A stretch of DNA of 64,000 bases. Origin: Pseudomonas sp. BN411 (lineage in GTDB: Bacteria > Pseudomonadota > Gammaproteobacteria > Pseudomonadales > Pseudomonadaceae). The DNA is taken from NCBI RefSeq assembly GCF_029871235.1, contig NZ_SSOM01000036.1:62001-126000 (forward strand), written 5' to 3'. Shown piece after piece: positions 27,334-41,408 of the stretch. Position 1 is the first letter of the stretch, and every line of letters begins with the position of its first letter. The notes beneath the pieces were generated by a model, which made no database searches, had not been told where the DNA came from, and saw only the letters and a list, made by a program, of their open reading frames with translations. Made by a program: the position numbers and the translations under genes.

Positions 27334-27446
27334 GGAGGTTCCCTCTGCGTTGCTAGTGATACCGGCAGAGGAACGCGCGCGAGGGAAGCGGACGCACGGG
27401 CGCCCAGATTTCCGGCTTGCGCCCGCCCACCGCGGGTTGCCAAAAC

Positions 27447-27640
27447 GTGATCAGGCCGGTCTCCGGGCTTGCGACGCCAGCCTTGGGCTGGATGGGCATG
27501 CCTTCCCATGCCGAACCGGCACAGTGGCGTACTTAACCCTACGATCGCTTACCGTTGCGGGGGCAGCGTCGGACTTGTCCGAAAATGGACGCACCGATTT
27601 CCCGTTTCACCTCGCGTACGGCGACGCAAGGCACCTGAAA
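27447..27640 (-). ncRNA. Cobalamin riboswitch (cbtB-cbtA-cobE-cobM)
   Basis: On the minus strand the element reads AGGTGCC near its 5' end, then GGGAAATCGGTGCG, GCTGCCCCCGCAACGGTAAG, CACTGTGCC, TGGGAAGG, and the B12-box variant AAGCCCGGAGACCGGCCTG. These are the ordered cobalamin aptamer blocks. It lies about 114 bp before cbtB and would shut off cobalt uptake when adenosylcobalamin is abundant. Confidence 0.93.
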
Positions 27641-27720
27641 AAACCGTGCTAGGACATCACGAGTCCGACCAAGCGTCAACTGCTGCGATTGACCGCTGCT
27701 GGCACGCTGCGTAGCCTTCG

Positions 27721-27896
27721 CCCTTTCGAGGTTCTCCGGATATACGCCGGAGCTAAGAGGGAACGTGGTCAAGGCCACGGCTGCCCCCGCAACTGTGAAC
27801 GCCCCCAAGGCCCTTCGAAATGCCACTGCGCAAGCGGGAAGGCGAAGGTGCCGCGCAACGCGCAGGGTCGTGAGCCAGGAGACCTGCCTCGACGAC
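27721..27896 (+). ncRNA. Cobalamin riboswitch (cobW-cobN)
   Basis: The plus-strand element contains GAGGTTCTCCGG, AGAGGGAACGTGGTC, GGCTGCCCCCGCAACTGTGA, GCCACTG, AGCGGGAAGGCG and the exact B12 box GAGCCAGGAGACCTGCC. It lies 101 bp before cobW. It starts only about 80 bp from the opposite-strand riboswitch, so both promoters must sit between or within the two leaders. Confidence 0.95.
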
Positions 27897-27997
27897 ATTC
27901 CAGACAACCGGGCGGGGTGATCCGGTGGCGAATCCGTTGCGCGGGGCCGGCCCCGCTGCGTTCGTCATGCCCGCCGACCGACCACGCAGAGGCGCGC

Positions 27998-33243: not shown

Positions 33244-34335
33244 TCACCCGCGCAACCGCTCCGCCGCCTCCCGCAGGATGCGCTCGGTGCCTTCCCAGCC
33301 CAGGCACCCATCGGTAATCGAAACCCCGTAACGCAGGTCGCAGGACAGCGATTGCGCGCCATCGAACAGGTGACTCTCGATCATCACGCCGCGCAGGGCG
33401 TCCTGGCCGGCCAGGCGCTGATTGACCACATCTTGCAGCACCGCGGGCTGGCGAAGCGGGTCTTTGCCGCTGTTGGCGTGACTGCAATCGACCAGGATGC
33501 GCGGTGCGATGCCGAGCTTCTCCAGCCCCTCGCGGGCCGCCTGCACGCTCGACGCATCATGGTTCGGCCCCTTGTGGCCGCCGCGCAGCACCAGGTGGGT
33601 GTCCGCATTGCCGGCGGTCTGCACCAGCGCCGGACGACCCAGGGTGTCGATGCCGAAATGCTGGTGGGCATGGGCGGCCGAGCGCATGGCGTCGGTCGCG
33701 ATACCGAGGCTGCCGTCCGTTCCGTTCTTGAAGCCCACTGGCAGGTCCAGCCCGCTGACCATCTCGCGGTGGATCTGCGACTCACTGGTGCGCGCACCGA
33801 TGGCGGCCCAGCTCAGCAGGTCATCCAGGTAGCCGGCCACCAGCGGTTGCAGCAATTCCGTGGCGACCGGAAGCCCCAGCTCAGCCATCTCCAGCATCAG
33901 CCGGCGGCTCAGGGCCAGGCCCCCGGCCATGTCGCCGCTGCCATCCAGATGCGGGTCGTAGACCAGCCCCTTCCAGCCCACGGTGGTGCGCGGCTTCTCG
34001 ACGTAGGCGCGCATCACCAGCAGCAACTGGTCGCTGACTTCCGGCGCCAGCCTGGCGAGGCGACGTGCGTAGTCGAGGGCGGAATCGGCATCGTGGATGG
34101 AACAGGGACCGACCACCACCAGCAGGCGCGAATCCTCGCCATCCAGCACGGCCCGCACAGCCTCGCGCTGGGCGCGGATCTGATGGGCGAGCTCATGGGA
34201 CAGCGGCAGGCGCTGGCGCAGTTCGGCGGGAGTGGGCAGCGGCTGGGTGCTGCGCGATGGGGGAAGGGCAGCCTCCAGCGCCATGGCATGGAGCGGCTGT
34301 ACAGCGGTGGGCAGAACGGATTGGTGCGAATTCAT
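33244..34335 (-). CDS. 3-deoxy-7-phosphoheptulonate (DAHP) synthase, AroFGH class
   Basis: This enzyme condenses phosphoenolpyruvate and erythrose-4-phosphate, opening the shikimate pathway. The 363-aa protein is of the E. coli AroF/AroG/AroH class: VVGPCSIHD, RAYVEKPRTTVGWKG, GARTSESQ (PEP/metal region) and the metal site LVDCSHANSGKD. The ATG at 34335 is chosen because GAGG lies 9 bases upstream; an ATG at 34344 would touch it. Which aromatic amino acid inhibits it cannot be told from sequence. The gene is preceded by an aromatic-rich leader region and a terminator. Confidence 0.95.
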   Translation of the reverse strand: MNSHQSVLPTAVQPLHAMALEAALPPSRSTQPLPTPAELRQRLPLSHELAHQIRAQREAVRAVLDGEDSRLLVVVGPCSIHDADSALDYARRLARLAPEVSDQLLLVMRAYVEKPRTTVGWKGLVYDPHLDGSGDMAGGLALSRRLMLEMAELGLPVATELLQPLVAGYLDDLLSWAAIGARTSESQIHREMVSGLDLPVGFKNGTDGSLGIATDAMRSAAHAHQHFGIDTLGRPALVQTAGNADTHLVLRGGHKGPNHDASSVQAAREGLEKLGIAPRILVDCSHANSGKDPLRQPAVLQDVVNQRLAGQDALRGVMIESHLFDGAQSLSCDLRYGVSITDGCLGWEGTERILREAAERLRG

Positions 34336-34377
34336 GACTGGCATCCTCAGCCGGCGCGGCTTGATCCGCGCGCGGCG

Positions 34378-34479
34378 CTATCTGGGTGTTCGATTCAACG
34401 GTGTCTGAGCGGTGCCTGCGCGGCTAAATCGCCAGTCGGAGTTGCGGTAATAGGTCTGGTAAGTGCGGTAGCTGATCAT
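34378..34479 (-). CDS. Second leader peptide upstream of DAHP synthase (Tyr-rich, 33 aa)
   Basis: The ATG at 34479 has GAGG about 9 bases upstream and opens a 33-codon frame. It begins [16 protein letters not shown], with four Tyr codons in the first eleven and a Trp at codon 16, and stops 43 bp before the synthase start. An in-frame ATG at 34500 adds seven residues. After its stop a GCGCGG-ATCAAG-CCGCGC hairpin lies just before the synthase Shine-Dalgarno. The peptide probably has no function as protein; it likely senses Tyr/Trp charging. Confidence 0.6.
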
Positions 34480-34521
34480 GGTGCGATCCTCGAATCTCAT
34501 GTGTTTGGCCTTGTGGGCCGG

Positions 34522-34560
34522 AAAACAAAAACCCCCGGTCGGGTTGCCGACCGGGGGTTT
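34522..34560 (-). terminator. Attenuator-type intrinsic terminator before DAHP synthase
   Basis: On the minus strand, CCCCCGGTCGG-CAAC-CCGACCGGGGG forms an 11-bp GC-rich stem followed directly by TTTTTGTTTT. It lies 50 bases after the stop of the 39-codon aromatic-rich leader and 187 bases before the synthase, with no gene ending at it. It is the expected place for a transcription attenuator. Confidence 0.85.
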
Positions 34561-34609
34561 CGTGGAGCTTTGGCGGCGACCCTGCTGGAGTGGGCCGCCT
34601 GATTGGGTA

Positions 34610-34729
34610 TCAGGCCAGCCCGTGGCTAAACCAATACCCATAGAAATAGCTGGCCGCAGCGGCCACACGCACACGCGCCACGACCTGAGTCTGGCGAGCG
34701 GTGAGCGAAGTGGAAGCGAGTTGCGGCAT
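34610..34729 (-). CDS. First leader peptide (39 aa) with Tyr/Phe/Trp codon cluster
   Basis: GGAGA lies 5 bases before the ATG at 34729, and the frame runs 39 codons. Its last thirteen codons read [13 protein letters not shown]: three Tyr, two Phe and one Trp in seven consecutive codons. The GGG-TAT codons there can pair with ATACCC just past the stop, and CCTGAT/ATCAGG can form a competing hairpin over the stop codon. A strong terminator follows. This is the layout of ribosome-mediated attenuation. Confidence 0.75.
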
Positions 34730-34755
34730 GACAATCTCCAAAGCGAATGCTGGAT

Positions 34756-34784
34756 AACCTACTGGATCGCCGCGCGCCGTTCAA
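34756..34784 (-). promoter_or_regulatory. Candidate promoter of the DAHP synthase leader
   Basis: On the minus strand TTGAAC (34784-34779) and TAGGTT (34761-34756) are 17 bp apart, upstream of the first leader peptide. The -35 match is good and the -10 weak. It would give a transcript starting about 20 bases before the leader start. Confidence 0.4.
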
Positions 34785-34852
34785 TCACTGATTTCTATCG
34801 GCCACCCCGACCTTTCGCTACCATGCGCGACACGCTTTCCCAGGATCCCGCC

Positions 34853-35854
34853 ATGTCCGACCTTCTCCACTTTCCCCTGAGCGCGGTCGTCGGTTCCGAC
34901 GAACTGAAGCTGGCGCTCTACCTCGCTGCCATCGACCCCGCCATCGGCGGCGTGCTGATCGAAGGTCCGCGCGGCATGGCCAAATCCACCCTGGCGCGCG
35001 GCATCGCCGACCTGCTGCCGGAAGCCACCTTCGTCACCCTGCCCCTGGGTGCCAGCGAAGAGCGCATCGTCGGCACCCTCGACCTGGACGCCGCCCTCGG
35101 CGAAGGCCGTGCGCGCTTCTCCCCCGGCGTGCTGGCGAAGGCCCACGGCGGCGTGCTCTATGTGGATGAAGTGAACCTGTTGCCCGACCACCTGGTGGAC
35201 CTGCTGCTCGACGTGGCCGCCAGCGGTGTGAACCAGGTGGAGCGCGATGGTCTTTCCCATCGACACCCCGCCCGCTTTGTGCTGATCGGCACCATGAACC
35301 CGGAAGAAGGCGAACTGCGACCGCAACTGCTGGACCGCTTCGGCCTCAAGGTCCGCCAGGACGGCCAGCCGCAACCGGCCGACCGTGCCGAGATCGTTCG
35401 CCGCCGCCTGGCCTTCGATGCCGATCCCCAGGCCTTCATCACCCAATGGAACGGCGAACAACAGGCCCTGGCCCGACGTTGCCAGGACGCCCGCGCACGC
35501 CTGCCCGGCATTCCCCTGGACGATGTCGCCCTCGATGACATCGCCCAGCGCTGTTTTGCCGCCGGTGTCGACGGCCTGCGCGCCGACCTGGTCTGGCTGC
35601 GCGCCGCCCGTGCCCACGCTGCCTGGCGCGGCGCCGAGCGCATCGAAGCCGAAGACATCGACGCCGTCGAAGACTTCGCCCTAGCCCACCGTCGCACCCA
35701 CACGCCACCACCCGCCGCGCAGCCGCCGCAAGCTCCACCGGCCGCCTCGCAGTCGCAGGCTTCCGGCGGTGAGGGCCAATGGGGCGAACTGCCCGCGCAA
35801 GCGGTACCCACCGGCGAGCGACGCGACCTGCCGCGCTGGCCAAAAAAGCCCTGA
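34853..35854 (+). CDS. Chelatase AAA+ subunit, BchI/ChlI-like (partner of CobN)
   Basis: The 333-aa AAA+ ATPase has Walker [10 protein letters not shown] (38-46), Walker [11 protein letters not shown] (101-110) and the sensor segment [20 protein letters not shown], as in Mg-chelatase BchI. The C-terminal 45 residues are Pro/Ala-rich. The start at 34853 has AGGA 9 bases upstream; an in-frame ATG at 34823 is possible. With the VWA gene that overlaps it by 76 bp and with CobN, it likely forms the cobalt chelatase motor, replacing CobS. Confidence 0.88.
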
Positions 35855-41050: not shown

Positions 41051-41142
41051 TTGCTCTCCTCGATTCTGAAAACGCCAAGGTCATTCGGCTTCCGACAGGC
41101 AGCCTTTTCCTCGGTCCGGGCAAAGCGGGCATAATAGCGCCC

Positions 41143-41310
41143 TTCATCGGTCGCTGGCGCTCACCTGACGAGCCCCAGCCTAAGAGGGAACACGGTCGAG
41201 CCGTGGCTGCCCCCGCAACTGTAAGCAGCGAGTCCATGCAATCTGGCCACTGAATTATCGGGAAGGCCGCACGGGACGACGACCTGCCAGCCAGGAGACC
41301 TGCCGGTGGA
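41143..41310 (+). ncRNA. Cobalamin riboswitch (cobG-cobH-cobI-cobJ)
   Basis: AGAGGGAACACGGTCGAGCC, GGCTGCCCCCGCAACTGTAAG, CCACTG, GGGAAGGCCG and the exact B12 box AGCCAGGAGACCTGCC appear in order on the plus strand. A CATAAT-like -10 at 41130 lies just upstream. The aptamer ends about 100 bp before cobG. A perfect CCCTAG-C-CTAGGG hairpin in between (about 41362) may be part of the expression platform. Confidence 0.95.
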
Positions 41311-41408
41311 ACCAGTCGCGTGTGTACGCATCGAGCGGGGTGTATCGGTGCAACGTTGTCCCTAGCCTAGGGAACCGGGTCGCCGCGACGCCAACCATGG
41401 TGACCTGA

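Follow-up and report, generated by a model that had tools for sequence, protein, structure and literature searches.

The 64,000-nucleotide stretch of Pseudomonas sp. BN411 DNA analysed here (hereafter the window) carries a gene for DAHP synthase, the first enzyme of the shikimate pathway. The gene is preceded, all on the minus strand and in this order, by a short reading frame crowded with aromatic codons (leader 1), an intrinsic terminator and a second, Tyr-rich reading frame (leader 2). This layout raises the question of whether the leaders control the gene and, if so, what each of them contributes. Comparison of related loci and RNA folding indicate that the region is very probably a ribosome-mediated transcription attenuator of the DAHP synthase gene, which would sense Tyr, Phe and Trp together. 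A preliminary description of this DNA had reported a 39-codon leader 1 with six aromatics in seven positions, the terminator and a 33-codon leader 2 before the gene, and these positions were confirmed (Table 1). The competing stems that it named, GGGTAT/ATACCC and CCTGAT/ATCAGG, are also present.

The core of the leader belongs to an Rfam family, RF00627, filed there as the small RNA (sRNA) P15. Matches to this family were found in 113 of the 148 genomes of the host's family (110 over the cut-off) and in 27 of the 293 searched in the order (15 of them over the cut-off). In total 126 loci were fetched, leaving aside two genomes of the family with a P15 match (G333 and G416) and two weak matches on the opposite strand. 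By tblastn, a DAHP synthase homologue adjoins P15 in all 126 loci, and the leader motif lies no more than 800 nucleotides upstream of it in 125.

Leader 1 of the window contains YFYGYWF, the sole segment with at least six aromatics among the 113,824 stop-free seven-residue segments in the six frames of the 64 kb. In 125 of the 126 P15 loci, five to seven aromatics occur in the ten codons ending at W-F-S or a variant of it, and Tyr is among them every time. The motifs used for counting contain Trp and Phe codons; consequently, Tyr is the one aromatic whose count does not depend on the choice of motif. At the W-F-S site, Phe is encoded by TTT in 124 of 125 loci and Ser by AGC in 123, TTT accounting for 8.9% of the Phe codons in the 33 long open reading frames of the window. 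Of the 107 loci with an upstream Shine-Dalgarno sequence and ATG, 98 have the nearest such pair in frame with the motif (two loci were mis-anchored). A leader reading frame with regulatory codons for products of the pathway, as expected of an attenuator, thus appears to be encoded here.

The leader RNA is predicted to form two mutually exclusive sets of helices. In the terminated set, arm a pairs with a', b' pairs with c, and the terminator forms. In the antiterminated set, b pairs with b' and c pairs with the terminator loop. Arm c, GGGTCGCCGCC, had escaped the preliminary description; ATCAGGCGGCCC and the terminator loop are its two possible partners, and it completes the switch. When 24 arm pairs were compared by swap tests on 61 representatives, the five proposed helices ranked first to fifth, with z from -9.4 to -4.6; relatedness between sequences inflates swap and covariation tests, and the 19 arm pairs that had not been proposed, which gave z from -2.3 to +1.9, serve as the control. 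Two loci (L075 and L079) and four pairs whose arms adjoin or overlap were left out of this test, which had first been run with 16 pairs on a larger set (L075, L079 and L082 excluded for short arms).

The two sets were also assessed on an alignment of 59 sequences (A1; L018, L025, L075 and L079 left out). The terminated set left 93.4% of cells paired, with 37 doubly changed cells, and the antiterminated set 92.7%, with 23; slid controls reached 25.7-59.1%. In covariation score, as well as in the numbers of paired and of doubly changed cells, either set surpassed every one of the 500 shuffles. Examples of compensation are AUGGAUAU with AUAUCCAU in helix a:a' of locus L117, and CGUGCUGCC with GGCAGCACG in the helix between c and the terminator loop of L027. 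On both strands of positions 33800-35400, three terminator-like sites were found, two of them overlapping at the leader terminator, compared to 0.8 in shuffles. An attenuator should combine an intrinsic terminator before the gene with a covarying antiterminator that excludes it, and the sequences point to both. The preliminary description had named a lack of the aromatic codons or the terminator in related species as counting against its proposal; both proved to be conserved.

The effect of a translating ribosome was assayed by folding the RNA not covered by it, the terminator being half made, in 60 representatives (L024, L026 and L027 were dropped from an initial 63 because their terminator or arm pattern failed to match). 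When the leading edge lay between W+0 and W+12, corresponding to a ribosome on the aromatic codons, the antiterminator was favoured in 56-59 of the 60. With the leading edge at stop+0 to stop+12, it was favoured in 13-18. At the window locus, the expected number of pairs between c and the terminator loop was 9.9 for a stall at Tyr, 10.0 at Trp and 6.1 at Phe, and 0.1 for a ribosome at the stop. Within the limits given below, the predicted fold follows the position of the ribosome in the sense expected of an attenuator.

The switch could work as follows. The ribosome on leader 1 would test the charging of tRNA-Tyr, tRNA-Phe and tRNA-Trp. If any one of them were short, the ribosome would stall on YFYGYWF and cover arm a; b:b' would form, freeing c to capture the terminator loop, and the polymerase would read through. 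If all three were charged, the ribosome would reach the stop codon and cover b and a'; b':c and the terminator would then form, and a leader transcript of about 220 nucleotides containing "sRNA P15" would be released. Altogether, the conservation of the peptide, the covariation of all five helices and the predicted change of fold with ribosome position strongly support this attenuation step.

Several results weigh against this interpretation. One P15 locus (L114) has no recognisable leader 1 and, having no motif, was excluded from all structure work. For the antiterminated set, the number of doubly changed pairs was matched by 11 of the 500 shuffles and that of further pair types by 25; one of the ten pairs between c and the loop is unpaired in 21 of the 59 sequences. 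Helix a:a' is weak in several loci of family f36, and the RNAalifold consensus holds only b':c and the terminator. In the folding calculations, the antiterminator was still favoured in 29 of the 60 representatives when no ribosome was present, so that termination without translation is poorly predicted. When ten bases of the 3' half of the terminator were made, the antiterminator was favoured in 30 of 60 for a Tyr stall, 45 for a Trp stall and two for the stop. Finally, the prediction reversed with the leading edge at stop+15 and stop+18 (antiterminator in 51 and 60 of 60, respectively).

Table 1. Positions of the leader elements and neighbouring features in the window, with the evidence or predicted role of each.
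Feature	Position	Strand	Remarks
Possible promoter, TTGAAC-N17-TAGGTT	34784-34756	minus	best-scoring pair of this locus lies elsewhere
Leader 1	34729-34610	minus	ATG 34729, stop TGA 34612-34610; 39 codons; TGGAG upstream; putative Tyr/Phe/Trp sensor
Rfam RF00627 "Pseudomonas sRNA P15", core of the putative attenuator	34652-34532	minus	91 bits, gathering cut-off 70
Arm a, GGGUAUUG	34639-34632	minus	within aromatic codons; predicted to pair with a'
Arm b, GGGCUGGCCUGA	34621-34610	minus	end of leader 1 including stop; predicted to pair with b'
Arm a', UGAUACCC	34612-34605	minus	predicted to pair with a
Arm b', AUCAGGCGGCCC	34603-34592	minus	predicted to pair with b (antitermination) or c (termination)
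Arm c, GGGUCGCCGCC	34582-34572	minus	predicted to pair with b' or terminator loop
Intrinsic terminator	34561-34522	minus	15-pair stem 34561-34528, then TGTTTT, T-rich tail
Terminator part captured by c (putative antiterminator), GGUCGGCAACCC	34552-34541	minus	
Leader 2	34479-34378	minus	ATG 34479, stop TAG 34380-34378; 33 codons; GAGGA upstream
Conserved core of leader 2, TGG CGA TTT AGC (WRFS)	34434-34423	minus	
Hairpin H, between leader 2 stop and DAHP synthase Shine-Dalgarno	34376-34350	minus	folding, covariation
DAHP synthase (first shikimate enzyme; aroF)	34344-33244	minus	NCBIfam aroFGH 443.9 bits, cut-off 173.2

The second peptide is also conserved. In 114 of the 126 loci, the sequence 3' of the terminator encodes a Tyr-rich peptide that has W-R-F at its core and shares its frame with an ATG; the nearest Shine-Dalgarno sequence with an ATG is in frame with the motif in 101 of 113. 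The core codons are CGA in 109 loci and TTT in all 114, CGA making up 8.2% of the Arg codons of the window. Leader 2 is absent in 12 loci, seven of which are among the nine of family f43, indicating that it can be absent while leader 1 is retained. The core resembles TGG TTT AGC of leader 1 (34633-34625), the bases at synonymous sites being nearly identical; no pairing partner was found for the TTTAGC common to both leaders. A longer leader 2 with an RSxQxAA(S/T)SDRxxGG-like tail is common to distant groups (L002, L003, L022-L026). In the DNA of L026, two possible interleaved stems, CGGTCGG/CCGACCG and TGCCACC/GGTGGCA, were noticed by eye; support for the first is weak (z 3.8).

The stretch between the stop of leader 2 and the Shine-Dalgarno sequence of the synthase was folded alone in 104 loci. 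It formed a helix (hairpin H) lying -2 to 3 nucleotides from the leader 2 stop in 102 of them and 0-2 nucleotides from the Shine-Dalgarno in 98, with a mean energy of -18.6, compared to -10.6 when shuffled. The two halves of H covary, with z -11.1 in an alignment-free test on 41 representatives and z 17.4 and 12.2 in a window-pair scan. RNAalifold found no consensus pair for H on an alignment made on sequence only (A2; L124-L126 left out), which we attribute to arms being out of register in such an alignment.

Leader 2 and H are parts of the same conserved leader, and our best guess is that they serve to couple or insulate translation of the synthase: terminating ribosomes would be handed across H to the synthase start, or H would keep the Shine-Dalgarno free. 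A helix that fills the gap between stop and Shine-Dalgarno in nearly all loci, and whose halves covary, makes this role plausible, if not quite probable. However, the Shine-Dalgarno was about equally accessible whether or not H was able to form, the RNAalifold result lends no help, and under coupling alone starvation should lower the amount of synthase, which is the wrong sign for a feedback sensor.

The preliminary description had proposed two-stage control by aromatic amino acids. Its first stage is upheld by the conservation, covariation and folding results above. In the second, leader 2 would be another sensor, acting, for instance, by way of Rho or of access to the synthase start; here the peptide itself is conserved, but the results on its action make this role unlikely. 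Tyr codons do precede the motif in all 114 loci, on average 3.5 within 14 codons; Trp and Phe lie within the motif, and the rare CGA is used in 109. The C-rich tail of leader 2 is a weak hint of Rho, with a mean C-G skew of 0.25 over the 114 loci against 0.02 (standard deviation 0.17) in coding controls from the window, but the skew at the window locus, 0.17, is inside the spread of the controls. A ribosome at any position on leader 2 left the synthase AUG more open (0.58-0.61 unpaired) than no ribosome did (0.43; up to 97 short-type loci), but the AUG did not distinguish a stalled ribosome from one at the stop.

Other results also argue against a second sensor. No terminator-like site was found 3' of leader 2 in the scan of 33800-35400 on both strands. 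The unpaired fraction of the Shine-Dalgarno hardly shifted over the five conditions folded, no ribosome and four ribosome positions (0.49, 0.45, 0.45, 0.45 and 0.42). The foldings covered 97 loci of the short type and 13 of the long type, or 94 and ten, respectively, for a ribosome at the stop, and control of the Shine-Dalgarno by leader 2 was rejected. Thus neither a terminator nor a sequestration of the Shine-Dalgarno set by ribosome position, one of which a second attenuator would need, was detected on leader 2. Outside H, the best window pair reached only z 4.1, for a background mean of 1.0 and standard deviation of 2.3. A leader 2 segment that seemed by eye to pair with the Shine-Dalgarno, at the window locus and in one other genus, found no support when 93 aligned sequences of the short type were scanned. 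We regard as doubtful a tandem leader in which the pooled supply of Tyr, Phe and Trp gates transcription through peptide 1, and peptide 2 gates translation by an undescribed device, through a bridge of stop, hairpin and Shine-Dalgarno. If true, it would place two serial ribosome checks at the entry of the shikimate pathway.

The record of P15 as an sRNA suggests another explanation, a trans-acting RNA in which the peptide is incidental. P15 is filed as such in Rfam, and an accessible passage of PMC2375449 counts it among the sRNAs detected by Livny et al. However, the same gene adjoins P15 in every fetched locus, and the coding frame and aromatic codons of leader 1 are conserved. Moreover, the P15-negative genomes tested have no close homologue of that gene. 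Sixteen of these from the family were searched with the window synthase (15 of the 20 listed, out of 35 in the family, and one from the order-wide search), and each gave a single match, 51-54% identical; the window's own genome gave the self match (100%) and a second at 54%, similar to the only match of the P15-negative genomes. In the 500 nucleotides upstream of eight such 51-54% paralogues, including that of the window's own genome, there are at most four aromatics per ten residues, compared to six at the window locus. A solely trans-acting P15 is thus very improbable; the released leader could act in trans as well. Less credible still is a metabolite-binding riboswitch, a possibility raised in an accessible passage of PMC2527527, given that arms a and b lie inside a conserved aromatic-rich reading frame and that the predicted fold follows the ribosome.

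Searches beyond the fetched loci gave a similar association with DAHP synthase. A scan of named genomes for the leader motif returned at least 119 stretches; among the matches listed, 110 precede a DAHP synthase, six are cut by the end of the locus, and three, from unrelated organisms, do not precede one. Named hosts include Pseudomonas, Stutzerimonas, Halopseudomonas, Denitrificimonas, Alcanivorax, Halotalea and Salinisphaera. A custom model (R1) matched 43 of 369 genomes of the class at E ≤0.001, and ten of 22 chosen genomes, namely the window's own and nine of 21 P15-negative ones. Among the R1 loci fetched (L127-L178), tblastn found a DAHP synthase in seven, from six genomes, and none in the rest. 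R1 thus extended the leader, beside DAHP synthase, to one further family of the class (f207, two genomes); matches of about 25-39 bits were taken as bare terminators rather than attenuators, because most of these loci have no DAHP synthase.

A promoter-like pair of boxes was also examined. Among 62 representatives, 45 have their top-scoring pair ending 22-29 nucleotides before the ATG of leader 1, the mean score being modestly higher than in shuffled sequences (7.4 versus 6.4). The best hit of the window locus lay elsewhere, and a promoter scan called none at 34756-34784. The listed start of the synthase, ATG 34344, overlaps TGAGGA (34349-34344); ATG 34335, nine bases further on, follows TGAGGA and may be the true start. 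The only Rfam matches over the cut-off in the window are P15 and three cobalamin riboswitches (103.7-107.2 bits), which flank the synthase region at 27712-27905 (plus), 41131-41321 (plus) and 27437-27653 (minus).

The preliminary description had guessed that attenuation of this gene was new. In the open full-text literature, most subscription papers and supplements being outside it, no published attenuation of this leader was found; the RNA itself had already been catalogued as sRNA P15. In P. aeruginosa, the counterpart of the window gene is, we assume, PA2943. In the accessible part of PMC9993114, PA2943 is merely listed in a table. PMC8297930 maps premature 3' ends in P. aeruginosa, and its main text gave no hit for "aromatic" or "P15"; the passages found in PMC2965389, PMC3460626 and PMC4833913 make no mention of this leader. 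What appears new here is that P15 holds a leader peptide and an antiterminator. The attenuator itself is of a known kind, of which the tandem arrangement and the bridge hairpin are a variant. The switch would offer a mechanism for a family that Rfam files as an sRNA gene, and a point at which Pseudomonas and its relatives could control transcription of the gene for a first shikimate enzyme, with one leader reading three amino acids at once. The shikimate pathway also feeds secondary metabolites; the switch could therefore matter for engineering aromatics in Pseudomonas.

Other DAHP synthase genes have been linked to attenuation. In the passages available, PMC8632094 proposes a leader-peptide attenuator with a terminator before aroF in Acholeplasma (the uORFC-13-1 motif), which differs from the window leader in having a U run that encodes at least one Phe and in occurring only in Acholeplasma and environmental sequences; its authors find it unlike the E. 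coli aroF 5' untranslated region. For E. coli aroF-tyrA (Camakaris 1980, cited through PMC8632094 and PMC2659441), also a DAHP synthase, attenuation is "hypothesised" according to PMC8632094, and PMC2659441 lists an attenuator sensing Tyr-tRNA, the citation given there also for Shewanella aroF. RF00627 is the same RNA as the core of the window leader, and differs in being filed as an sRNA gene. Within Pseudomonas, a 2001 paper by Olekhnovich and Gussin reportedly deals, by its title, with attenuation of trpE and trpGDC in P. putida, likewise genes of amino acid biosynthesis, although different ones. The layout is that of the his, trp and phe attenuators of enterobacteria, in which a leader peptide rich in the amino acid of the pathway, alternative stems and an intrinsic terminator are combined. 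The five-helix relay seems closer to the his leader than to the three-helix trp leader. Unlike in these systems, a single codon run would here sense three amino acids, the gene concerned is that of the common first enzyme, and the terminator is followed by another conserved leader.
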